From Asterochloris sp. CNOR1 (Eukaryota > Chlorophyta > Trebouxiophyceae > Trebouxiales > Trebouxiaceae), in the NCBI GenBank assembly GCA_963969365.1, contig OZ017751.1, forward strand, positions 1,116,001 through 1,180,000: a stretch of DNA of 64,000 bases. Reading direction: 5' to 3'. The position numbers and the translations under genes were made by a program. Below, in pieces: positions 21,283 to 35,967 of the stretch (positions are counted from its first letter, which is position 1; each line of letters opens with the position of its first letter). The notes under the pieces are model-generated. The model saw only the letters and a list, made by a program, of their open reading frames with translations, was not told the DNA's origin and did no database searches.

Positions 21283-24200
21283 TCAGGGCTGAGACAGAAA
21301 AGCTGGTCCTGCAAAATTCAAAGCATCAACGCCACCATGGAGAGACTGTCGTTGCAGCACCTGATCAAGCACAGCAGAGCCGGCTGGGTCAATGGACACC
21401 ATGCCTGGCACGCGGGTGGTGGCCACCAGTGGGACGTCCATAGACATGGCACGATCTGCGTACCGGTGCTCGCTGGCCTGCAGGTGCCACGCCAGATATT
21501 CAGCTGGCTTGTGGCAGGCTGCAAGTGATGAGGTGGCAAGCTCACCTGATTGGATGCCCAGCTGCGCAGCGGGCTGCTGAGTGAACACTAGCTGTAGAGC
21601 AGATGGCTACATGAAAACCCTGCCAAGGTGCACACGGCAAGCAGCCAGGGCGATCTCACCCTTGCAGCATGGGATGGCATCGCATTTGGGCCAGTGCTTT
21701 CAGATATGACGACTCCCTGCGACTCCGCCCTGGCATCTGAGACTGCTGACTTGGCAGGATGCACTGATGGACCCCCTACAGCACAGCTGTCAACTTGGGG
21801 CAGGACTGAGACAATGCAGCCATGTGCAGGCAAGTGCATCAGAGGCTGGGGTGAGAGTGCATGCAGCGCTGGCAGAGGGCGTCAGATCGGACGGTATCAG
21901 AACGAGCGGTTGGAATGGCTGTACGGGGCTGCCATCTGGGGTTGGCCACTGGCTCCAGGCAGGCTCGCAGGGCGTCAGAACAGAAGGTATCAGAATGCAG
22001 CGGTCAGAATGGCTGTGGTGGGATGGCTGCCCCTGCAACTGCCCTGGCACAAGGCAGGCAGGCAGTGCAGCGCACCCTGAAAGGTGGGCAGGGGATTCGC
22101 CCTGGAATGGGGGCACCCGTTTCTCTGCAACAGCAGGAGCGTGGTGGGCAGGCGCCCTGTAATACTTGCTGGATGGGGAGTCGAGCTCATGATGAGCCTC
22201 CCAGTCACCTGCCAGGCAGGGTTTCAGTTGCTTGGCCTGACATTTGCAGGCCAGAAAGGGGGTGTCATGCTGAGCCTCCAGGTCACACCTGTCAGGCAGG
22301 ACAGAGGTCTGGCCAGCAAGACAGCCAGCAACACCCAATTTCATTTCCAGATCAGTATTCAGGTTGGCCTGGCAGCCTCAGGTGTTGGGGCTGCAACGCT
22401 TCAGGGGAGAGGGGAGCAGTGCAGCGGGCAGAAGGGAAGGAGGGTAGCAGAAGAGGGCAGACTGTGCTGCTCAGAACCAGAACACCTGCCAGCAAAGTTC
22501 AGTGCAGGCTGTTGTGCAGCGTGAAATCTGCAGTGAAGTGGAGCACGTCAATCTGCACGTGGCAAATGAGTCTTCCTGGTGAGCTGAGACGCCAGGGCCG
22601 GATGCCAATGTGCAGGGTCGTGAGCTCAACAAGGCAAACTCTGCACTCACAACAGCAGCGTACCTCTGCCCCCGTGGCTGGAGTGCCCCACTGCCTGTGA
22701 ACTGTTGCCCCAGTTGAGGCTCATCAGCACGTCAGCTGCAAATGAGTCGTCGTCTGTGGTCATCATGGAATTGGCGCGCCGCGTGCCAGTTCTATTGGTG
22801 CGAGGCCTCTTGCTTGCACCTGCAGGTTGGGGCAGCTTCAGTTTGAAGCAGCCCCATGTGCACTGTTCCCTTCACATGAGCTGCCCCTGGACTGGTGACA
22901 CATCTGCCTGGCACCAATGCTGCAGGGGCTGAGCCCACCCAGACGGGTGTCCTTGTCAGTCTGCATATAGGCTAACATGTTCAGGCAGTCCCATGCACCT
23001 GCGCCATGCGGTCCCCAAGAGGCCATGACCACAAAAGGGTGGTAGGAAGAACCTCAGCAGCAAGCCTTACGGTTTTGCGAGGCAACTCGTACTGCTTTGT
23101 GAGGGGCCCAAGGGCTCTGAGCCCACCTCCAGAGGCCATGCCTGCGAAGGGATCGTGCAAAGGGTCGACCTTAGTCACCATCCCTCTGCGCTTGACCGGC
23201 ATGCTGCTGGCACGGCCGCTGGTGGCGATGGCCACTTTGGGACGACTGGCAGGAACCACCTGCTTTCCCTCATCGTCCACAGCAATGTCCTGCTCTTGCA
23301 GCCACTGTCCAAGGGCGACTGCTGTGCGCACACCACGGGCATCAAAGTTGCCCACCTATAACAGGCACTCAGATCAGCAGTCAATGGACAGCAGGCTGTC
23401 GGTGTGCTGGGCTGTTGAGGCCTCACATCATCAGGCAAGCCAGCCAGCCTCTGACAAGAATCCTTGACGAGAGTTTCTACGATGCTGCAGACAAGAGGGG
23501 TCGGCAGCTGCTGAAGCTCTGCAACAAGCATGCGGGCAGAAGCATCAAGATGGAGTAGGCTGCATTCGGCACAACCTGCAACTGCAAGAGCATGCAGGTG
23601 CCTCACCTCCACTAGCAAGCTGGACCGCCAGTCCTGCCCACTGCCCATGCCAGCCTGCTGCAGGAACTCGGAGGGGCTCAGATACCGGGTATGTATCTGC
23701 AGGCAGAGGGGACAGAGTCCTTTAGTGCAAAAGAGCCTGAGCAAGGAGCTACCATGCATATGGCAGCATATCTAATCCACAGCAGAGGCAGGCACCATCT
23801 GATGGGATTTAGAGCCTTCAGGGCAGCAGTGGATGTAAGATGGCCACCAGGGCAGACTCATGTGCAGCAGGCATGATCTGCGGCCCCTCTGCCAGCATCC
23901 AATGCCAGGTCAAAGAGCTTCACCACAGGCACCCCCAGCCACCCGGCCGCCAATGTTAAAAGCAATTGGCAGTCAGGCAGCTCTCCTGCCGGCACGAAAA
24001 GCCACACGGGTGGAAAGCCAGCCCACCTGGCCATCCATACCGAAGCGGATGGCAATGGACCCGCGGCTGGTGTCATACATGCCGGTCAATCCCTGGCAGG
24101 TCACATTGACCATACGCCCAGTCTCCACAACCTGCACACGGAGGAGCAGGCTGAGTGCAGTGCCATTGCCGCCACATTTGCAAAGCATCCTGCTCCAAGA

Positions 24201-24472
24201 TGCCAGGCAAGCTTGCACTTGTAGCTATGTTTGCAGGGCAGCCTGCTTCAAGGAGCCCGGCAACAGTCACATTTGCAGCCCTGTGCCGATTGCACACGGT
24301 CTGCAGGCGCTGCACGCAACAGTCCATCAATACCAGCACCGTGGACCAAAGGGAAGCTCTGGCGTGGCCTGAGCAACTCCAGTCAACTCACCTCTGCATT
24401 CAACACGCGGTCAAGCTCCAGGTCCATGGAGGCCTTGCGCTTGCCCAGGCTGCCCTTGCGACGGTTGGCCAT
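21283..24472 (-). CDS. SAND/VARL-like DNA-binding protein
   Basis: Minus-strand exons: about 24503-24389, with ATG at 24472 (MANRRKGSLGKRKASMDLE); about 24131-24027 (VNVTCQGLTGMYDTSRGS); about 23696-23610 (RYLSPSEFLQQAGMGSGQDW); about 23355-23060 (RTAVALGQWLQEQDI, later KRRGMVTKVDPL); about 22820-22700 (KRPRTNRTGTRRAN); and a last exon ending in TGA at 21285-21283 (AEYLAWHLQASEHRYADRAM). The run V-C-x-G with S-P-x-E-F, A-G and W-R-S-S matches the SAND fold and resembles the VARL (RegA-like) version of volvocine algae, including the trailing L-G-x-W-L. SAND proteins bind DNA in the nucleus; basic patches (KRK, KRR, KRPR) fit this. Family assignment rests on motif spacing only. The gene could start at 24472 or continue from the B3 locus upstream on the same strand. 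Confidence 0.6.
21877..22015. repeat. 93-bp spaced direct repeat in intron
   Basis: Two diverged copies of a segment of about 46 bp (GGGCGTCAGATCGGACGGTA at 21877 and GGGCGTCAGAACAGAAGGTA at 21970), both ending GAATGGCTG, lie 93 bp apart in the long presumed intron of the SAND-like gene. A second pair (AGCCTCC..GTCAC..CAGGCAG) follows near 22196 and 22274. No coding role is seen. Confidence 0.6.
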
Positions 24473-24479
24473 CCGCGGG

Positions 24480-24592
24480 GGGGACAGGGGCTGGCTGTCC
24501 TGCCTGCAGGCGTGAGCAGGCCTGCTGAAATGGCAGCTCCACCTGGGTGCAGGGGCGATGAAGACTGGCTGTCCTGCTTGCAGGCATGCCAG
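24480..24592. repeat. Duplicated exon-acceptor edge, SAND-like gene
   Basis: The region around a likely acceptor (GGCTGTCCTGCCTGCAGG near 24493) is repeated about 74 bp away (GGCTGTCCTGCTTGCAGG near 24567). On the minus strand both copies read as acceptor followed by CAGGACAGCCAG, so the intron carries a second decayed exon start. Confidence 0.6.
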
Positions 24593-25362
24593 GGCGCCAT
24601 GCACGGGAAGCTAAGGTGCTGACAGGACAGCAAGGGTGCTCTACGATGACGTATGGGGTGTCTTTGCAGGCTCATCTCCACATCTTGCGCCAGAAAGAGT
24701 GAAGCAAAGGCAGGACATGTTTGCTCTGCCCTGCAAACGACTCCAAAACTTGATGAATGCAGAGTCCTTCGCTGTTTCACAGCATGACACACAGAGTGTT
24801 GTGTACAAGAACAGTTTGCGATCAATTGCAGGGCTGCATGCCCACCTGCCACTGGTCAGCACCGCAGGCCGGGAAGAGGTTGATAGACCTGCTGTAGAGG
24901 TGCCTCGGCTAATCCCTTGGGAACCTGTCTCGGCATCACTGTCATTCTCAGACCGTGCCCAGCTGCAGCACAACACCAAAACCACTGAGTATTCAGCGAG
25001 CTGGCAAGCCTGGGCTGCACAAATGAGAGCATCAGATCGATATCAGAGGAGCTAGACCCTGCCACATGCAGCCTGGTCACTTGCAACTGTATGTGTTTGC
25101 TGATTGTCTGTGCAGTGGGCAGGCTGAGAGTGTTGCAGCCGGTGCACACAGCCAAGTGCAAGCTGCGACTTTGGCTGGTGAGGAAGCACATACAGAAACA
25201 GTATGTGAGACGGTATCCCAAAGCAGCACCCCAGATGCTGGGCTCTTCTATGTGGGAGATGCGCAGCTGGAACACCTGGTGCAGTGGCTGCCGTCAAAGT
25301 GGTCCTTGACTCTTCACCCTGCTGCGCAACCAGAGAGCCAAAGTAACAGTCTGCAGCAGAGC

Positions 25363-28300
25363 TCACCTTCTCTCCTTCAGCTCCTTGGGGGGGTTGCGCC
25401 GCTTGAACCCCTTGTGCCCGCTGCAGAAGCCCTGGTGGCCGGCCGGCTTGGTGCACCCGGGGGTGCGAGCGCACACCAGGAGCTCCCCCTGAAGCATAGC
25501 TGGCGCGCGGGCTGTGAACTGTGGCGCCTCACCTGCCCGTGCCTGCTTGGGGCTGGGGCGAACCCTGGGCCGGCCCTCTGTCCGCACAGTGCCCACCGTG
25601 TCTGCCTCAGTGCTCAGCGTCTGCAGCAGGTGCCAGCAAAGAGCGGCATCTCAGTGATAGTGATGTGGGCTGCTTTTCTGCTCACCATTTGCACCAGAGG
25701 CAGTAGCAGAGCGACATATCAGCATGCACATCACCCTGCGGCCGCCCCATGAAGTCTTCCTGCATACTCAATGTCTACAGCAGAGGCACCAGCAGAGCGG
25801 CATCTCAGCATCACCCGGTGGCCTCCCACAGTGTCTGCCTCATGTGCTGAGTACTGCCAGCAGGTGCACCAGCAGAGCGGCGTCACAGTGCCTGGTTTGG
25901 CCTCCCACAGTGTCTGCCTCCTTGCTCACTGTCTGCTGCATGTGTCACCGGGTGCCTGCCGCAAGGGGAGCACGCTAACGTGCAGACTTTGACCACGCAG
26001 CGATGTGGAAGTGCACCAACTAGAGGGCAGCAGCACGTAACATGTGCAACCAGAGGCACCGGTGTGCGCCGCATGGCGCTCACCCTCTGCCACATGGCAT
26101 ATATATGCCATGCCCTGAGATTGCAGCATTGCCTGAGGCTGTCTTCTCATCAGGCCAGCTGCTCACTGTTCTTTTATCACGAACAGCACAAAAACTTCAT
26201 CTGCAGAGCTGATGATGGACGTCGCCTCCTCACGCTGCCCATGGCAGCAGGGGACCTAGATCATGGTGGATGCCCACTGGGATCAAGAGTGTGTACGGCA
26301 GCCGCAGCTGCACTCAGCGGCATTGCCACCCGCTGAAGCAGCACAGTTGCGGTGCTCACCCAGGGTGACCCTCCTTGTGCTGCAGTCTGACCACGCCGCA
26401 CTGCAGCAGGGGACTTGTGATGTCTGCCCGGAAACAGCAGCGACTCTCCTGCATGTATCACAGCTGCAGCACACCCTCAGCAGCATTCCCCTCTTCTTGA
26501 CCAGCCCACTCCCATCACTCACCATTGGCTGCCCCTCCTCGTGCTGCAACTGCAACTTGAAGCCCTCCCGCGCCGAGCCAGCCTCCAGCAGCGGCCTTGT
26601 GCGTTCCAGCATGTACATGCGCAACCCAGTGCTGCTGGTCCAATGGCGAAGGAGCACCTCGTGCTCCTCGCCTGCCTGATCCACCACCTGCAGGCAGCAC
26701 ATCACTTGAGCTCTGCTGTTGCTTGCAGCATCAAAAAGCACCTTGTCATTCTCAGCTGCCTGATTGCCACCTGCAGGCAGCAATCCAGGCTAGCAGGGTA
26801 CCTCATGCTCTTCGCCAGTCAGTCCGCAGGCAGCAGCATCTCTAGGGCGTCAGCTTGAGCAAACAGAGCTGCCTGCCTTCACACAGACCACTCCAGCCTC
26901 AGAGCTGGGGCACCACAGGGGCACCACCTGCGCATACAACTCATTAGTCTCTGCATGGCACTATAAACAAAATGGAGAAGTCTGGCTCACCACTCTGCAG
27001 GATGTAGCTGGCAGCAGCTCAGCCCTCAGGATGCTCCTCCTATCCTGGCGAGCAGAATCAGTCATCAGCAGCCAAGGTTCTTGATGCCCAAAGCCACAGC
27101 AGCTGGTGCAACGTCATGCACATGCTGAGTGGTCTGCATCTCACCCAGCAGTCAGTTGCTGACCCACCTCAAACTTCAGCACAGCGTGCTCCAGAGCTGC
27201 AGGGATGTGCTGCTCCACTGCAGGGCTGGGCAGCAGGATCTGCCCTGTCGCAATGTCTGCCGCTGTCAGATTCTTCACCACCACCGTCCCCAGCCCAATC
27301 TCTGATGACTCCAGCGCGGATGCACCCGTCAGGCTCTCCAGAGGTGCAGGCACATCTTCTACAGCAGGACCAGGGTGCAGATGTTAGTGTCTAGCAGTAA
27401 GGGGGCAAGCAGCTGCTGATGCAGTCCTTCACCCAGCACCTCAACTGAGGCAAGCAGTGCAGAATGCAGCAGCAGCAATGCACAGCATAATGGAAGGAGT
27501 GTGCTGGACAGAATTTGGCGCAAGCCTCACAGCCATTGTCAGTCAAGCGCACACATTGGGGGACCTCTGACAGGCGGCCCTCACCTGGATGTGCTGCTGC
27601 AGCTGGAGGTGCATGACGAGGCTCATTGACGACTGTCCTGCCCTCTGCTGCAGCTTTGGGGCCGCTGCAGAAGCCTGGGTGGCCGGCTGGCTTTGTGCAA
27701 TACGGATTCCGTGTGCACTTGCCAGGTGTGCCTGCAGATGAGCACTCAGTCTGGAGCACAGATGCCGCGGAAGAGACCCTGCAGGTGTTTGTTATAGGTG
27801 GGCTCTGAAGATGGCTCTGGCATCATGCTGGACACCAAGTGCTGCTGGCCTTGGAGGTCACAGCATGGGGCACTGCACAGCAAGGTTCAGACTGATGTTG
27901 ACTCAAGGGTCGTGCTGAGGCGGTTACATGCCCAGCAGCTGTAGGCCATATCAGCAGCTTGCTGGTGGACAAGTGGACGCTGTCACACCATGCACGGCCA
28001 TCTTATCAGCCTGCCTGTTGGTCAGCATAGCAGCACACGTGGAATTCAGGCATACTGCAGCGCTAGTTGCTGCCAAACAGGCTTTGCGTATCGATGCACG
28101 CCCTTTCAGGAGACATGGAAATTGATGCACATCAATTCATGCACATGCATGTGATGCCCAGCTATAGCTTCCTGGTTGTCAGCCAGCACAGCATTGCACC
28201 TGCTATCAGCGGCGCGGCAGTGCCAGGCGAGGGCGGCGAGGCATACACAGGCTGGGCACGGTATGTCGGCCGCACTGTGGCCTGCTTCAATTCATCACTG

Positions 28301-31300
28301 TTGCACTCAATGACCAGTTCTCCCTGCAGCAGCACGGTGCACCCTCAGGCAGAGTGCCGAGTGCAGTCACATTCACAGAATGACCAGCACAGCCCACAGC
28401 AGCACCAGCTGTGCAAAGCAGAGTGCCACATGCAGTCCAATGCACTTGATCACAAGCTCACCCTGCAGCAGCATTGGGAGCAGTCAGGCATGATCCAATG
28501 TGCGGGTGGAGCGACACATGTAGTTGAGGCAAATGCTCAGGTCTGCACAAAAACAAGTCTGCACACTAGCAGGTCCCAGGCAGGCGCGCACAGTAAGCAG
28601 AGGCACAGCTGCATGAGGGTGCCCTGCCCTCACAGGACTGCAGCGATGAAGTGCACAGATGAGGGTACAACCCAATCTCAATGCAGATCACCAGCCCACA
28701 TTCTTCCCCTGGGCACACATCTGAGGGCGTGGAGCAACCTTGCTTTGAGCTTACCTCTTGATTGGTGCAGATGCCTACAGCGTCGCCCATGCTCAGCTTA
28801 AAAGTGCGCAGGTACTCCGCTGCCTGCTCCAACACATACACCCGCCGGTGCTCAGTGCCATTGGCCCAGGACTTGATCACAAAGTCCCACATGCGGCCAG
28901 AGGCATCCTTGAGCTGCAGCTTGTATGACCTGCAGTCAAAAGCCAGCAGTTTGAGCCATGATGTATCTCGGTTGTTGTAGCACGGAGACCTCAACAGTAC
29001 AACTACATGCCTCTGGCATCCCCAGGCATAGTATGATGGGCCATGCCTGCCAACACAAGTGGTCAGGAGCAAGCCTGCAAGCCAAGTAACCAAGCAATAC
29101 ATGCCTACTCCTGAAGCATTTCTGTAGCTCAAAGGCTTTGCCTTAGCTTGATGATGTGCAAGCCAAGATGCCGACCGCCAGCAGCGCAAATGTAGAAGGA
29201 GAGTTTGGCCTACTCTTGAAGAAAGTAAGCTTTGCCATTAGCTCATCTGTTTCACCTGCCTGCTGCATGCGTAGTGTTCACGATGTGGCAGCTAGATTGC
29301 ACCCTGCAGTCACAGGCCTGCTGCATGCATGTGGTGTGCCCACCTGTAGCCCACTGAGGATGGCGTCAGACAGCAATGCGGGGCCAACACGTGCTCAAGC
29401 AAGTGACTGCCCATTGAGCCTCGCTGCTGCTTGCAAGCATGCAATTGAATTGCAGATCAGAGGGCCCTCTGTCTGCTATCACAATGGGCCTGACGCCTGA
29501 CTGTATGGGCCTAGGTGCTGCCCGATTGCATGCCAAGAAAACCCAAGCAAGTTTCCACAAGGCGCACCTGTAGCCCATGAGGAAGCTCAGGTTGGCCTCC
29601 ACAGCGACGCGGGGCAGAATGATGCGCCCATGGGTGTCGCTGTTGGTCAGCACCTTGGACACCAGCACAAAGGACTTGGCCAGGTTGGTGGGCTTCCCTG
29701 ACCCCTTGCCCAGGCTGCCGTGGGGGACCACGGGGGGGCCTGTCACCCGGGGTGCAACCTTGTTCCCTGCAGGGGGCCCAAGAGTGCTAAGAAAGGCCAC
29801 CTTTGCAGCTGCACAGGACAGGGTAGCAGAATCTCCCTGAGGCCAAACAATGAACACATTCAAACACCGACTGATGGCTAGCTGGCCAAGCCACTGCTGC
29901 TGGCAGCGCTGGCAAACCTCCTGCTGCACCACTGCAGATGGCACAGCAGCCAAGCTTCTACAACCCAAGGCAGATAGGAGGTGATGCCTGCGTGCTGCGT
30001 GCTCATGCAGAGTTTTGTTGCGGCAGAGAGCACACCCAGCAGGCGTCCAAGCAAACACCTGCCGAATACTAGTGGCTGTAGACAGACTGACCCAGGACCC
30101 CGAAGGACCCTGAAGTCACCTGCTGCATGCTCGTGCAGGCTCTTGTTGCCGGCTGAGGGCGGGGAGCTCCCAGCTGCCCCCCCAGAGCTCCTGCGAGAGC
30201 CTGAAGGTGAGGAGCTGGGCCTGGGACGTGTGGGAGTCCTCTCCACAGGCGCAAACATCTGCAGGTTGGCCGTGGAGGGCCTGGCCTCCTCCATCTGGCT
30301 GGTCTGGAAGCTGGGGGCAGCAAAGGGGCTGGCCATGTTGGCCCCGCTGGTCTGGGGAGCCGGCAGGCTGGCCAGCATGCCAGCGCTCAGGCTGGGCAGG
30401 CCTGGCCCTGCAGCAGGAAGACTTGGGGGTGAGGAGCCATCGCAGAACAGGCTGGGTCCACCGGTTGTGGGCTGGACAGGCCGGCCTGCATGCTGCTGTC
30501 ATGGCTGTGCAGCCCAGGGCCTGCAGCAAGAAGACTTGAGTGAGCAGAACTGGCAGGAGCAGCTGACCTGGGGGCAGCAGCATACTGGCCTGGCATGTTT
30601 GGGGCCAGACGGACCGGGCAACATGCCGCTGCCCAGGCTGTGCAGCCCCAGCCCCTGGAGCGCCTGCAGCACAGGGTGCAGCACGACAGCCTCACTTGTG
30701 CATGGCAGCAAGACAAGGTGCAAGAGACCTGCATTGAGAACAGTGGCTTGAACACGGCAAGCTCAGTTGGGGTTCAGCATGACGCACAATTGTGTGTAGG
30801 CGATGGCGTTGGCTGACAGCCTGCATGCTCACGATGCACCTGGGGACAGGCCCGTGTGTGGTGGACCCAGATGCTCACCTTCACCTTGCAGCAAGCCGCT
30901 GGACATCCCAGAGAGCTGCGTGCCAAGGGGCCCGAAGCCAAACTGCATGTCTCCCAAACTCATTGGCCTGTGCAGCAAGCGCGACGCGGGAGGCAGGCCT
31001 GGCCCCATCAGCCCTGTTGATGGGAAGCTGTCAAGACCAAGCCCCGCCCCATCACTCCTTCAGCAGTGGAACAGCCACGTCAAAAGGTGAAGCAGGGTCA
31101 GCTGGACAGCGCTGAAAGCCCCAGCACTGACGCTCTCAGGCAGCACCACTTTCTCATGAGCGGGTGTGCTATGGAGCACAATGGCTGACAGGGTGCCAGG
31201 GACCTGAGCAGGGCAGCTCAAAGCCTGAGTGCCAGTAAGCTCTAGCAAACTGCGTTTTGCTGCTCAGGTCACCAGAAATGTGGGTAGGCACCTGGCTGCA

Positions 31301-34300
31301 TTGGCCGCAGCCATTAGCAGGCATACACAGAGCGAAGCAGTGGGCTGTACCTGCTGAGGCCGGCCACTGTTGGCAGAAGATGGGCACCCCAGGTTTGGCA
31401 GGCGCCACTGACCCACATGCAGCATATTTGGCAGCGGCATGGGGTGTGCTCACCTGAACAGTGATGGCACCCCAGCCTCGGCAGGTGTAGGAATTCCATA
31501 TGCGCCGCTCTGCACAGGCCCCGGCACCATGCCGGACCCCATGCCAGGCCTCAGGGGGCCTGACACGCCACCTTGCCTCTCCCCGTCAGCCCCAGATGTG
31601 GGCACTGACCCGTCTGCCGCGGCAGAGGGGCTGAGCAGCCCTGCAATGCCAGCGCCGGCGGTCAAGGGCTGTGCTTCAGCCCCTGAGCCTGCAGGCCCTG
31701 CGCCCTGCACAATGCGTACGATGCCTGGCTGTCGCAGCTGCTGCTGTGCGGCTGCCGCCTGTGCCTGCTGGGCACGCTGCATCATGAGCTCCTGGTGCTG
31801 CTGGCGGTGCATGGCCTGCGGCCACGCAAACATGAGTCTCAGAATACCTGCTGAGGATGCTCATGCAGCATGAATTCCCAATCTGCAGCAGATCACTGAA
31901 CAGCATCCCATCACCCGCTTGCGCCTCGTCTGCGGTGCTGATCAGGCTCGAAGTGTCGGCGCACGCAAGACAGGCAGCTGTGTGGCGGATGGAATAGACT
32001 GTTGACGTTCATGTGTACACATGTGGCTCCCTCTCCCCAAGAGCCACATGACACCATGCCTGTCCTCCAGAGAGAGACGCGGGCTGCTTAATGGACATAC
32101 ACGTGCCTGAGAAAGGCTGGCCGCCAAGTGGACATACATGTGCACTTGGGATCAGGGTGTGGCCCGACTCAGTGGAGGTGCATGCAGATGCAGGGCACTC
32201 ACCTGCAGCATGGCATAGGGGTTCTGATCTGTCGGATGCTGAAGCCCCATCTCCTCCGGTTTGAGGTCCAGCTGCATATCAGGCATGGTGGGCACTGGCA
32301 TGCCAGGCCAGAAGGGGTTCAGCTGCTGCTGGGTCTGGGGAGGGCCAGGCTGCTGCATGCCAGCCTGGGACGGCGCTGCCGGCGCCTCTGCTGAGTCCTG
32401 GAAGGGGTCAGCCATCCTGGGCCCGCTGCCCAGCATGCGAGCAAAGTTGACCTCGCAGCCCGCCCTGAACTTGCGCTGCCTGCAGGATGGGTGCACGGGG
32501 CGTCCTGGTCAGCACTACTGCAAAACATGCCTTGAACTTGGCAGCCTCTGCTTCTCTCGTCCCAGAACGCTGACCCCGATGCAGCAGAGAGGTTGTGCCG
32601 CTCACAGGGTAGATACAAAGGGCGTCTTGACTCTGTGGCAGATGACAGCATGCAGTTTGGACATTCTGCCCTGGGGCAACAGCGATGGGCGTCTCAATGT
32701 CCATGCTGAGCCGCCTGGATGTGGCATATCCTCCACATGATTATGGCACAGTGTACAAGCTTGCATGGGCTGCAGAGGCTCAAGTGTGTGGCTGTCACCT
32801 GTTGGATTGTCGCCTGCTAGCCTCTGCTTCGGCGCTGGGCACTCTGCCAGCTGCCAAGGCCTACAAAGCAGTTCAGCAGCGTCACATCATCTTAGGGTGA
32901 TGGACCAGCACATGCCAATCTGGGAGGGTTGCAAGCAGCAGTATCATCTGCACAGAATCGTCTGCACAGAAATGGCGTGCATGCCCTGGGCACAAGGCAT
33001 TGCCAGGCAAGGCATAGGTCTGCATGATCTGACTCTGGGCATGCCGCCCCAGCTTTCTTGCATGCAAGCCAAGCACAGCGACTCACCTCCAGGTCAAAAC
33101 CACTGCCTATGTTTGCCCTGACAGGGTTCAGGACAATGCTCATCGACTCGTCCTGGCGCCTGATGATGCCAAGGCTATCTCCTGCCTTGAGGTTGTGGAG
33201 GCTCAGGTACCGGCCTGCAGTGCAGCAGGATGGCTCAGGCTGCACTCTCTGGTGGTGTAAGGCTGACAGCAGTGGGTGACCTTCCAGCCAAGCTGCACAG
33301 CAGAGAACGGGGAAGACCCGCACAAACAGAGAGGGTGGGCTTGCGATGAACAGCTTTGCACGGTCTCACCCATGTGCTCAAGCACGTAGCGAGACTGGGA
33401 CATGGCGATCCTCGCAGGCCACTTGCTGCCTTGCTCATCAGCCAGCACCTGCAGTGCCAGGTGACCGCCTTCTGTCATTGTTCTCCGGGGTCAACGATGG
33501 GATTGTCAGGCACCAGGCTCTGCTCATGCTGCTTGCATGCTTTCAGTGCTCATGCAACAGCCAGATACACAAGGATTAACACCAAAACTGGCCACTAGCA
33601 ACAGGTCTGTGCTGCATGCTGCTGCGAGCAGAACCTTGGTCAGGTGCACGCCCAGAGATGTGCCCCACCAGGTCCAGGCCCTGCCCTTCGACGACCTCAG
33701 GCATGTTGGTCTGCACAGCCAGCCTCGGCAACTCGATCATGCCCGACGCGAGGTCTTCCTCAGTGAGCCCCTTCCCCACCAAAAGGCCCTGCAGCAGGTG
33801 GGAAGCCTCCTGCCTCAGCTTTGCACACTCAGCCTGCACCGTCTGCAGGGGCACACCATCACAATCCTGCTTCAGAACTAGAAGCCCCTGAAGGGGTACA
33901 GCTTCAGGGCAACACCAGCATTTGCACTGTCTGCAGAATGCTGCAGCAAATGCCTGCTCCAGCCCTGTATACTGCTATGCAGGTAGGCGCCTGCAGCAGG
34001 CTCAAGCACAGTTTGCAACAGTGCTGTACACCACTGTGCAGCATCTGCAGCAGACTTGAGCATGATGCTGCCTCAGCGCTCTTCAGAATGGTGCAGGAGG
34101 CACAGGCAAAAGCAATCTGCCAGCCGTGTTTGCAGCATCTGTTGGGCAAACCTCACCCTGGTCATTTGACCAGCAAGGCAAGATCCTGGCTGCTCAGCCA
34201 ACCATCAATGGCTTGATTCAATGCGCTCTGCACATCAGCAGCCTTCAGCTGCCAGCAAGCAATGCCAGAGGGCAGCACACCTTGAACAGCTGGCCGCTGG

Positions 34301-35967
34301 CTGTGTCAAGCTCTGAGGAGTCACCCTGCTGCAGCAGATTGTGCTCCTGCCACTGCCTGCCACCTGCAAGTAGCGACAGCAACCATGCCTATAGGCCTGC
34401 AGGGTTTTTGTGCAGGATGGCAGGAATATCGTAAGTTGCTACCGATCATGTCAGCAGGTCTGCAGTGCAGGACACGCAGCCACTGAGCGCACGATGGGCA
34501 TGCCGCAGGGCCAGACCTACACTGAGATTAGTGCATGCCTGGCTGCAGAGCACGCCTCACCATAATACACCTGTGGAGATGGCATATGTAGCCCCTAGCA
34601 GCACAGCACCTGTTGACAGTCACCTGGGGAGGAGGCACGTACAGCCTGGGGCGGCTCGGCGGGGGGCGCAGCCGGAGCTGACTTCCCCTTCAGTGCGCTG
34701 TCGCAGAAGCCTGTGTGCCCCAGGGGCTTGCTGCAGGCCGCACTGCGGTGGCATTGCGCCAGATGGTCCCCCCCTGCCCTCTGGACAGCACCGCTCTGCG
34801 CAGCTGCCGCCTGCAGTGCTGCCTCAGTGTTGGCCTCAATGCCCTGCAGGCACAAGAGAGAGGGGCTGTCTTTGCCTGCGGTGAGCAGCCAGCTTAGCGA
34901 GGCAATGGCCAACTGGCGTGTGCAGCAAGTCAGCGACATCAAGGCTGCAAAGGGGCCATGAGGCGAGAGGGGCTGTCACTGTCTGAGCGAGCAGCCAGCC
35001 AGCAGGGCAGTGGCATACAGCAAGGTTAAGACATCCAGGCTGAAAAGAGTACATGATTTAGGCACGGGAGAGGTGGCTGTCTTGGGGCCTGTGCTGAGCT
35101 GTCAGCCCAGCAGGGCAACCACAATCAGGCTGCAAAGGGGACATGCTGCAAGCACCAGCAAGGAGGCTCACCAACGCCCCATCCTCTCGCCGCCTGACAG
35201 CTATCACATCGCCAACCTTCAGGTTCAGCTTCTTTAGATAGGTAGCTGCACACACAAGGCAGCAGCTTGGCACAGATGCAGGACTGTGAAGGCAGATTGC
35301 TATTTGGGGAGCCACATTGAAGCCCTGTGGAGCATGTGTATGGGAGGCATCTAGCCTGCGCAGCTCATAGCCTGGGACTACGCCCAGCACGGACCTGTGC
35401 GCTCCAGGACATAGACTCTCTTGTTCTCAGAGCCATTGGGCCAGGACTTTATCACAAACTTCCATGGGACGTCATGCTCATCAAGCATTTCCTGCAGGTC
35501 AAAGGCTGCCAGAGGTTGCTTGGCTAAGGCAGCAGCAACAACTGTCTAGAATTCCATCTCAGAAGCACAGCAATGACAGTCCATAGTCAGCAATGAGCGG
35601 TGCTCTGCATGGCACGCGGGGGCTGCTCTGAGCCAATGCCCATACCCATAAGGCACAATGCTCAGCATCGACATCCAGAGCACTCACCACCTCATTGTGC
35701 TTTCTGTTGTTCACTGCTGGCAGATTCTGCTCCACGGCCACCCTGGGCAGCGTGATGCGCCCGCTCTTGCTGATATTCAGACAGCAGTCGCTGTTGGTGA
35801 GGGCCTTTGCAAACAGCACTCGAGGCAGATCCTCTGCAGTATATCTTGGTCAGTGAGCTTCCAGAGGAACAGCCAGGATACATGTGGCTGCAAAGATGCA
35901 CTACTACCGTGGCAGTCAAACACTCACTGGTGTCAACCAAGCTCTGGGTCACTACTTCTTCGCCCAT
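25363..35967 (-). CDS. Multi-B3-domain transcription factor locus (one or two genes)
   Basis: Minus-strand exons encode four B3 DNA-binding domains and three CCHC motifs. From the 5' side: ATG 35967 (MGEEVVTQSLVDT, exon 35967-35928), B3-1 (35833-35172), CCHC-1 (exon 34843-34624), B3-2 (about 33850-33087), Gln/Pro/Met-rich exons (about 32490-32200, 31812-31470, 31040-30880, 30755-30390, 30405-30160), B3-3 (29766-28755), CCHC-2 (about 27740-27590), B3-4 (27358-26523), CCHC-3 (about 25620-25363). The first four exons are in phase through B3-1. Plant B3 proteins are nuclear and bind DNA with a seven-stranded pseudobarrel; Gln/Pro-rich stretches often activate transcription. I saw no clear stop between B3-2 and B3-3, so a single four-B3 protein is possible; two adjacent duplicate genes is the main alternative. 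The 3' end is not fixed: an acidic exon near 24960-24890 (ENDSDAETGSQG) may link to the SAND-like gene. Confidence 0.68.
25397..25475 (-). other. CCHC motif 3
   Basis: The residues CARTPGCTKPAGHQGFC match the motif exactly and are followed by a basic run (GHKGFKRRNPPKELKERR). The exon is the most downstream segment assigned to the B3 locus. Confidence 0.75.
25587..25890. repeat. Degenerate minisatellite over exon acceptor, CCHC-3
   Basis: Four units with the core CAGCAGAGCGGCATCTCAG (near 25622, 25691, 25777 and 25857; spacing 69-86 bp) also share CACAGTGTCTGCCTC. On the minus strand the first unit contains the probable acceptor and start of the CCHC-3 exon, so the others look like decayed copies of that edge. 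Confidence 0.65.
26523..27358 (-). other. B3 domain 4 (divergent)
   Basis: Two exons, 27358-27168 (VVVKNLTAADIATGQILLPS, PAVEQHIPAALEHA) and 26687-26523 (VVDQAGEEHEVLLRHW, LRMYMLERTRPLLEAG), follow the B3 order of N-terminal strand, LPxxAVE, D-x-x-G-x-E-x-x-V and MYxLE. It pairs with B3 domain 2 as the divergent type. Confidence 0.72.
26651..26838. repeat. Tandem copies of B3-4 exon start
   Basis: The acceptor edge of the second B3-4 exon (plus strand CCACCTGCAGGCAGCA near 26684) recurs near 26767 (GCCACCTGCAGGCAGCA) and in shorter form near 26821 (CGCAGGCAGCAG). On the minus strand the first intron copy is still partly open and reads GGNQAAENDKVLF against VVDQAGEEHEVLL in the exon. Confidence 0.68.
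27656..27721 (-). other. CCHC motif 2
   Basis: The residues CTRNPYCTKPAGHPGFC match the same C-x-R-x3-C-[TS]-K-P-x-G-H-x-G-F-C pattern and lie between B3 domains 3 and 4. Confidence 0.75.
28302..28500. repeat. About 72-bp tandem repeat in intron
   Basis: Two to three degenerate units carrying AATGACCAG, CAGCAGCAC and GCAGAGTGCC occur at about 28308, 28378 and 28447 in the intron following B3 domain 3. Confidence 0.55.
28755..29766 (-). other. B3 domain 3
   Basis: Two phased exons (29766-29568 and 28929-28755) give a full B3 domain: FVLVSKVLTNSDTHGRIILP, RVAVEANLSFLMGYR, then LKDASGRMWDFVIKSWANGT, RRVYVLEQ, and TFKLSMGDAVGI. This is the best match to the plant B3 consensus in the window. Confidence 0.88.
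30001..30165. repeat. Duplicated exon end in intron, B3 locus
   Basis: An exon end reading NKSLHEHAA on the minus strand (about 30160-30125, followed by a GT donor) has a decayed copy reading NKTLHEHAA about 128 bp further on (about 30032-29998) within the intron. Confidence 0.6.
33087..33850 (-). other. B3 domain 2 (divergent)
   Basis: Three exons: about 33850-33660 (GLTEEDLASGMIELPRLAV, QTNMPEVVEG), about 33441-33370 (VLADEQGSKWPARIAMSQSR, YVLEHM) and about 33212-33087 (YLSLHNLKAGDSLGIIRRQD). The order strand-helix, W-P-x-R-I, YVLE and L-x-x-GD is that of B3, but the N-terminal SD and GRI signature is weakened, as in B3 domain 4. Confidence 0.72.
34688..34757 (-). other. CCHC motif 1
   Basis: The residues CHRSAACSKPLGHTGFC fit C-x-R-x3-C-[TS]-K-P-x-G-H-x-G-F-C, spacing C-x5-C-x5-H-x3-C, which suggests a small zinc-binding unit. 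It lies between B3 domains 1 and 2. Confidence 0.7.
34853..35120. repeat. Threefold degenerate intron repeat
   Basis: Copies of a segment starting GAGAGGGGCTGTC with a following AGCAGCCAGC run begin near 34858, 34966 and 35068, spaced about 105 bp, inside the intron between B3-1 and the CCHC-1 exon. Confidence 0.55.
35172..35833 (-). other. B3 domain 1
   Basis: Three phased exons (35833-35688, 35491-35395, 35245-35172) encode a canonical B3 domain: VLFAKALTNSD, then KSGRITLPRVAVEQNLPAV, then WKFVIKSWPNGSENKRVYVL, then LKKLNLKVGDVIAVRRRED. It is most like B3 domain 3 of this window. Confidence 0.85.

Follow-up and report, generated by a model that had tools for sequence, protein, structure and literature searches.

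The window examined here is a 64,000-nucleotide stretch of the Asterochloris sp. CNOR1 genome (contig OZ017751.1, positions 1,116,001 to 1,180,000; C6:1116001-1180000 in the 56.4-Mb, 21-contig genome searched). Its minus strand from 35967 to 21283 reads as one gene encoding one four-B3 protein, in which the B3 domains are interleaved with copies of a CCHC unit and followed by a SAND-like region. The product, with its four B3 domains, three CCHC units and SAND-like domain on flexible linkers, is probably a multivalent regulator of transcription or chromatin.

Gene structure

Exon sites were GT-AG borders picked by eye and chained in phase. In this chain, 25 exons were placed from the ATG at 35967 to 22664, encoding 1363 amino acids. 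A probable last exon, additional to these 25, matched the Trebouxia C-terminal query with 48% identity over 29 amino acids (tblastn, E 2e-6), and the splice path from 22664 to 21477 is a gap in the model. Exon phases are continuous across the linker between B3-2 and B3-3, which starts with a conserved RKFR-GCEVNFARML stretch. A single predicted protein of Trebouxia, P0001, shares 37% identity covering 97% of the query, and its tblastn matches to the window are colinear from 35819 to 21358, the final exon with the stop ending at 21283 included. The DSFAADVLMSL stretch of the C-terminal region corresponds to DSLAAEVLLSL in Trebouxia. An initial annotation of the window had offered one four-B3 protein or two neighboring paralogues, and the exon phases together with the colinear P0001 support the first. 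The domains that it listed were all recovered, but the SAND domain and the C-terminus (24131-21283) had been missed; the gene reaches beyond the interval then described, to about 21283, and the SAND region is located there.

Two candidates were discarded. The linker exon considered at 30728-30585 lacked a GT donor and was exchanged for another. The ATG in exon 24503-24392 was rejected as the start of a separate gene because a duplicate copy of this region elsewhere in the genome replaces the ATG yet retains the frame.

Identity of the B3 domains

All four domains belong to the B3 superfamily. Held-out family profiles, from which the window row was left out, scored 158.5 bits for B3-1, 80.0 for B3-2, 200.3 for B3-3 and 86.8 for B3-4, with the relatives' segments delimited by an alignment that had the window in it; across 500 shuffled versions of the window protein, these profiles peaked at 7.9 bits. 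Among solved B3 domains, LEC2 was the best match for the family profile of B3-2 (2.6e-13), the profile of B3-4 matched LEC2, VAL1 and FUS3 (best 7e-12), and B3-3 matched LEC2 (3.6e-10). The four B3 domains proposed on one strand, including the second and fourth, for which a B3 profile match had been in question, were thus confirmed. Structure prediction, suggested earlier as a check, folded B3-4 with a LAV-type domain as its nearest solved B3; this comparison covered B3-4 and the SAND region.

With the Pfam B3 family, the final spliced protein scored 73 bits over three stretches. When the domains were excised and scanned singly, B3-1 scored 30.5 bits, B3-2 27.7 and B3-3 24.6, and no match was found for B3-4; in the first rough splice the scores were 32.3, 21.2, 24.4 and none, respectively. 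Among the four singly scanned domains, B3-1 alone passed the cut-off of 30.1. A Pfam B3 search over the whole genome and 14 controls gave zero matches, which was not taken as absence because exons presumably split the domain.

DNA-facing arms

Arm columns were defined by alignment to LEC2. The residue counts use domain hits of at least 95 residues, and a domain of P0020 scored as B3-2 was counted as B3-4; the 53 rows of B3-3 and of B3-4 include many close relatives, and the counts are not independent events. Lysine 66, tryptophan 68 and asparagine 70 were kept in 53/53 B3-3 rows and 5/5 B3-1 rows, and the arm columns of B3-3 were conserved at 98% and 96% versus 71% elsewhere. In B3-2, lysine 66 and tryptophan 68 were each present in one of five rows and asparagine 70 in none. 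In B3-4, lysine or arginine 66 was found in 49/53 rows, tryptophan 68 in 49/53 and asparagine 70 in 6/53. Where all four domains are present (three species), conservation of the C-arm fell below that of the rest in both B3-2 (60% versus 63%) and B3-4 (53% versus 60%). From the arm-residue counts and arm conservation, B3-2 looks the most decayed and B3-4 only partly so. At these key residues the alternation of canonical (1 and 3) and divergent (2 and 4) domains described earlier was borne out.

Position 69 is proline in 4/5 B3-1 rows and alanine in 53/53 B3-3 rows, and the LEC2 serine occurs in none. In land plants, ABI3 and VAL1 have B3 domains of attenuated activity within complex architectures, and the difference between LEC2 and ABI3 is explained by residues 64, 66 and 69 (PMC8136769). 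The residues of B3-1 and B3-3 at position 69 would fit attenuated DNA binding, short of showing attenuation.

CCHC units and SAND-like region

CCHC units follow B3-1, B3-3 and B3-4, as the initial annotation had placed them (Table 1). Its view that one unit is repeated gains support from nine residues that are invariant across 14 units selected from types 1, 2 and 3, all nine of them shared by CCHC unit 1. Of the 58 proteins, 57 have the spacing C-x5-C-x5-H-x3-C exactly; this count takes in a few degenerate third units, and P0057 has no unit. The exact pattern K-x2-G-H-x-G-F-C occurs at five places in the genome (three in this gene, one in a partial duplicate and one with a stop), and its reversed control had zero occurrences. 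Among the 14 units scanned, none matched a Pfam family above the cut-off. Zf_WRKY19, DUF5763 and EsV_1_7 matched 3, 3 and 1 of the 14, respectively, at E <= 1, none passing the cut-off; unit 3 of the window scored 17.5 and 17.0 bits against cut-offs of 27 and 26.3 for the first two families. The retroviral-type CCHC zinc knuckle has the spacing C-x2-C-x4-H-x4-C, which differs from that of the window unit, and its Pfam family matched none of the units. Weak CCHC-like matches were also seen on C7 and C9.

The region after CCHC unit 3 is SAND-like. Its assignment as a SAND domain is carried by the predicted structure, which matched the SAND fold in the structure comparison. A 30.8-bit SAND match at 23768-23583 was given no weight because this span reads into a modeled intron. 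Elsewhere in the genome, a six-frame search gave two more SAND-like matches, L016 (C2:3635348-3635509, 30.3 bits) and L017 (C1:2952816-2952893, 21.6 bits), in which intron read-through is possible as in the window match.

Distribution and history

Green-algal relatives were recovered in which B3-CCHC-B3 is recurrent. The domain table holds 58 proteins, the window protein and 57 relatives, the latter all gene predictions; two of them, P0012 and P0057, resemble merged gene models. Unit A is defined as B3-1, CCHC1 and B3-2, and unit B as B3-3, CCHC2 and B3-4. B3-3 was found in 58 proteins, CCHC2 in 56, B3-4 in 53, CCHC3 in 42, SAND (by family profile) in 9, B3-1 in 6, B3-2 in 6 (one of which, in P0020, is probably B3-4) and CCHC1 in 4. 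Both units and SAND occur in five proteins: the window protein, Trebouxia P0001, P0002 and P0003, and Apatococcus P0004. CCHC1 was not matched in P0001 and P0002, and B3-1 is truncated in P0003. Botryococcus P0006 has B3-1, CCHC1, B3-3, CCHC2, CCHC3 and SAND and is missing both divergent domains, B3-2 and B3-4, through either loss or exon skipping.

Among proteins without B3-1 and SAND, 32 carry B3-3, CCHC2, B3-4 and CCHC3, and 14 carry the first three only. The named organisms with unit B only are Chlorella, Micractinium, Auxenochlorella, Prototheca, Nannochloris and Picochlorum, and metagenome contigs were also represented. These proteins, which share B3-CCHC-B3 with the window protein and have no unit A and no matched SAND, are annotated as hypothetical and once as LEC2-like. 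A further group (P0058-P0065) shares with the window protein a B3-3-like domain (8/8, 101-123 bits) and the CCHC unit (7/8), both at the C-terminus, and differs by methyltransferase-type domains, namely AWS and SET in 8/8, Tudor listed in five and PWWP in three. Pfam B3 was below the cut-off in the three of these proteins that were scanned. They are gene predictions of mixed sources; erroneous fusion is possible, yet the arrangement is seen in eight. The Asterochloris genome also carries a separate single-B3, LAV-like gene (L022, C1:621481-624612, near 622.5 kb), with a sub-cut-off Pfam B3 score of 27.8 bits on a guessed splice.

Of the algal domain rows available, 35-36 went into the trees together with LEC2 and VAL1 fragments, the second tree without four long rows. 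All four B3 types fall into one clade with the SET-linked B3, separate from LEC2, VAL1 and the single-B3 gene of Asterochloris (96/92), and the four SET-linked domains in the tree nest within the B3-3 clade. B3-2 pairs with B3-4 (88/87; 82/68 after removal of the four long rows). Grouping of B3-1 with B3-3 and the SET-linked B3 was not rejected (p 0.42), and neither were B3-1/B3-2 (p 0.11), B3-1/B3-4 (p 0.13) and B3-3 plus SET-linked/B3-4 (p 0.16). B3-1, B3-2 and B3-4 share a phase-0 intron, its position agreeing to about one column, and B3-1 and B3-2 also share one of phase 1. Between the duplication of a B3-CCHC-B3 module proposed in the initial annotation and a tandem duplication, the evidence is mixed: the B3-2/B3-4 grouping and the unrejected B3-1/B3-3 one fit the module, whereas the other pairings (p 0.11-0.16) and the phase-1 intron of B3-1 and B3-2 do not speak for it.

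Comparison with known systems

LAV proteins (LEC2, VAL1, FUS3, ABI3) carry one B3 domain, and this domain binds the Sph/RY element CATGCA. They provide the nearest solved B3 for B3-2, B3-3 and B3-4 by sequence, and for folded B3-4 too; the window protein differs in having four B3 domains, CCHC units and SAND. A scan of the window protein and of seven whole relatives for the zf-CW domain of VAL-type proteins gave no match at E <= 1. REM-type plant proteins, with which the gene had earlier been compared, have several B3 domains per protein, and in this respect the likeness stands. The nearest solved domains are LAV-type (LEC2, VAL1, FUS3); 4i1k and 1yel, which are REM-type, rank lower, in a comparison limited by the small number of REM structures. 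We know of no CCHC or SAND in REM proteins. SAND-domain proteins include SP140, GMEB1 and the volvocine RegA/VARL proteins, and to our knowledge none carries B3.

According to Romanel et al., land-plant B3 diversity is traced to an algal ABI3/HSI-like gene, and Chlamydomonas and Volvox have one ABI3/HSI-like B3 gene each (PMC2688026). The Asterochloris genome retains a single-B3 gene. Alongside it is a protein whose four B3 domains were multiplied separately and which also bears SAND and a CCHC unit of no known class. This protein provides an independent example of B3 multiplication in which canonical copies alternate with divergent ones along one chain. In the open literature searched, no description of B3 with CCHC and SAND was found, in line with the earlier view that the B3-CCHC architecture is undescribed in green algae. 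B3 and SAND are themselves known domains.

Proposed function and alternative explanations

We infer a large, mostly disordered, nuclear regulatory protein. B3-1 and B3-3, which keep their DNA-facing arms, probably read DNA, and by analogy with LAV-type B3 their target would most likely be an Sph/RY-like element. In B3-2 and B3-4 the B3 fold or profile persists but arm residues are lost, so that they are probably protein-interaction or weak backbone-binding modules. Each CCHC unit probably binds one zinc, bracing or extending the neighboring B3, and the SAND domain would give an extra DNA or chromatin contact. The computation itself shows a single gene, what its domains are, key arm residues kept in B3-1 and B3-3 but lost in B3-2 and in part in B3-4, and a constant CCHC spacing; nuclear location, binding to DNA and its target, zinc and the role in regulation are inferences.

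Several results weigh against this interpretation. The arms of B3-4 (70% and 71%) are more conserved than its rest (57%, 53 rows), and in B3-2 the N-arm (80%) exceeds the other arm (70%) and the rest (69%, five rows); the C-arm falls below the rest only in the three species carrying all four domains. The SET-linked B3 has glutamine at position 66 in 4/4. The arm columns rest on the LEC2 alignment, and the role of asparagine 70 is presumed. CATGCA occurs 166 times in the window versus 183 expected, showing no RY-element enrichment. The structure comparison covered B3-4 and SAND, and the CCHC units were only moderately ordered in the predicted model (blocks 55-77). For SAND, the Pfam score was 20.5 bits for the excised region (cut-off 22) and 14.4 for the whole protein, one of seven scanned relatives matched (16.7 bits, also sub-cut-off), and the best solved SAND chain had E 0.077. 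The SAND motif KDWK is replaced by QDWR in the window, QDWK or QDWR in Trebouxia and TSWQ in Apatococcus; the sub-cut-off score and QDWR also set the window protein apart from SP140/GMEB1-type SAND proteins.

If the divergent domains bound DNA too, the protein would read four sites or an unusual composite site. The fold or profile retained by B3-2 and B3-4, and in B3-4 the positive residue 66, the tryptophan and arms conserved above the rest, are consistent with this; however, B3-2 has lost all three arm residues in most rows, and B3-4 lacks asparagine 70 in 47/53, with arms well below the 96-98% of B3-3. Binding by all four domains is thus unlikely. A split near 32.4 kb into two neighboring paralogues, gene A (B3-1, CCHC1, B3-2) and gene B (B3-3, CCHC2, B3-4, CCHC3, SAND), would agree with the in-frame ATG of the first linker exon. 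Unit B can also exist alone: it is carried without unit A by Coccomyxa P0007, by Trebouxia P0005 (whose model may be truncated) and by 46 other table proteins. However, P0001, P0002, P0003 and P0004, themselves predictions, each have both units in one protein, Botryococcus P0006 links B3-1 and CCHC1 to the unit-B domains and SAND, and the exon phases join over the linker, which makes two genes highly improbable. A decaying pseudogene or copied repeat, for which the drifting copy of a 1.6-kb piece (24350-25973) might speak, is scarcely credible given a chain of 25 open exons bordered by GT-AG, the Trebouxia match along the length and the exact CCHC core at five genome places, three of them inside the gene.

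Beyond the single multivalent regulator, it may tentatively be suggested, with more doubt than confidence, that B3 paired with C-x5-C-x5-H-x3-C is a distinct algal module for reading DNA, without land-plant counterpart, multiplied in a SAND-bearing regulator and grafted onto an AWS-SET methyltransferase (in some also with PWWP and Tudor). If so, a single family of B3 readers in trebouxiophyte algae would guide the regulator and the histone-modifying enzyme alike to sites that are related. The link to a SET-type chromatin enzyme is directly testable.

Feature positions and neighboring sequence

Table 1. Positions in the window of the four-B3 gene and its parts
Feature	Position	Strand	Exons and basis
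Whole gene	21283..35967	minus	First ATG 35967, stop ending 21283; phase-consistent GT-AG exon chain and colinear Trebouxia P0001 tblastn
B3-1, canonical	35172..35833	minus	35833-35688, 35491-35395, 35245-35172; Pfam and held-out profile
CCHC unit 1 (CHRSAACSKPLGHTGFC)	34624..34843	minus	Between B3-1 and B3-2; held-out profile 35.5 bits
Small exon preceding B3-2	34363-34281	minus	
B3-2, divergent	33087..33842	minus	33842-33669, 33448-33370, 33214-33087; held-out profile and LEC2 match
Low-complexity linker	30120..32475	minus	32475-32203, 31815-31454, 31057-30879, 30407-30120
B3-3, canonical	28200..29766	minus	29766-29568, 28929-28755, 28323-28200; LEC2 match and held-out profile
CCHC unit 2 (CTRNPYCTKPAGHPGFC)	27585..27731	minus	Between B3-3 and B3-4; held-out profile 51.8 bits
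B3-4, divergent	26523..27358	minus	27358-27168, 26687-26523
CCHC unit 3 (CARTPGCTKPAGHQGFC), basic tail SGHKGFKRR	25367..25620	minus	After B3-4; held-out profile 52.0 bits
Basic internal exon (RRKGSLGKRK)	24392..24503	minus	Phase fits
SAND-like domain	23607..24131	minus	24131-24027, 23696-23607; end inside 23355-23127
C-terminal region	22664..23355	minus	23355-23127, 22819-22664; DSFAADVLMSL stretch
Probable last exon	21283..21477	minus	tblastn match to Trebouxia C-terminus

The piece at 24350-25973, which holds the CCHC3 exon and the basic exon, has a second copy at a distance of 0.6 Mb, at C6:541384-542986, with 81% identity. Its exons are 87% and 93% identical and other parts 83%; since codon positions are about equally conserved, the copy is probably drifting. 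The ten other long open reading frames of the window had no Pfam match (0/10). Downstream on the minus strand, at about 18450-16740, exons joined by eye encode a uracil-DNA glycosylase (Pfam UDG, 36.6 bits).
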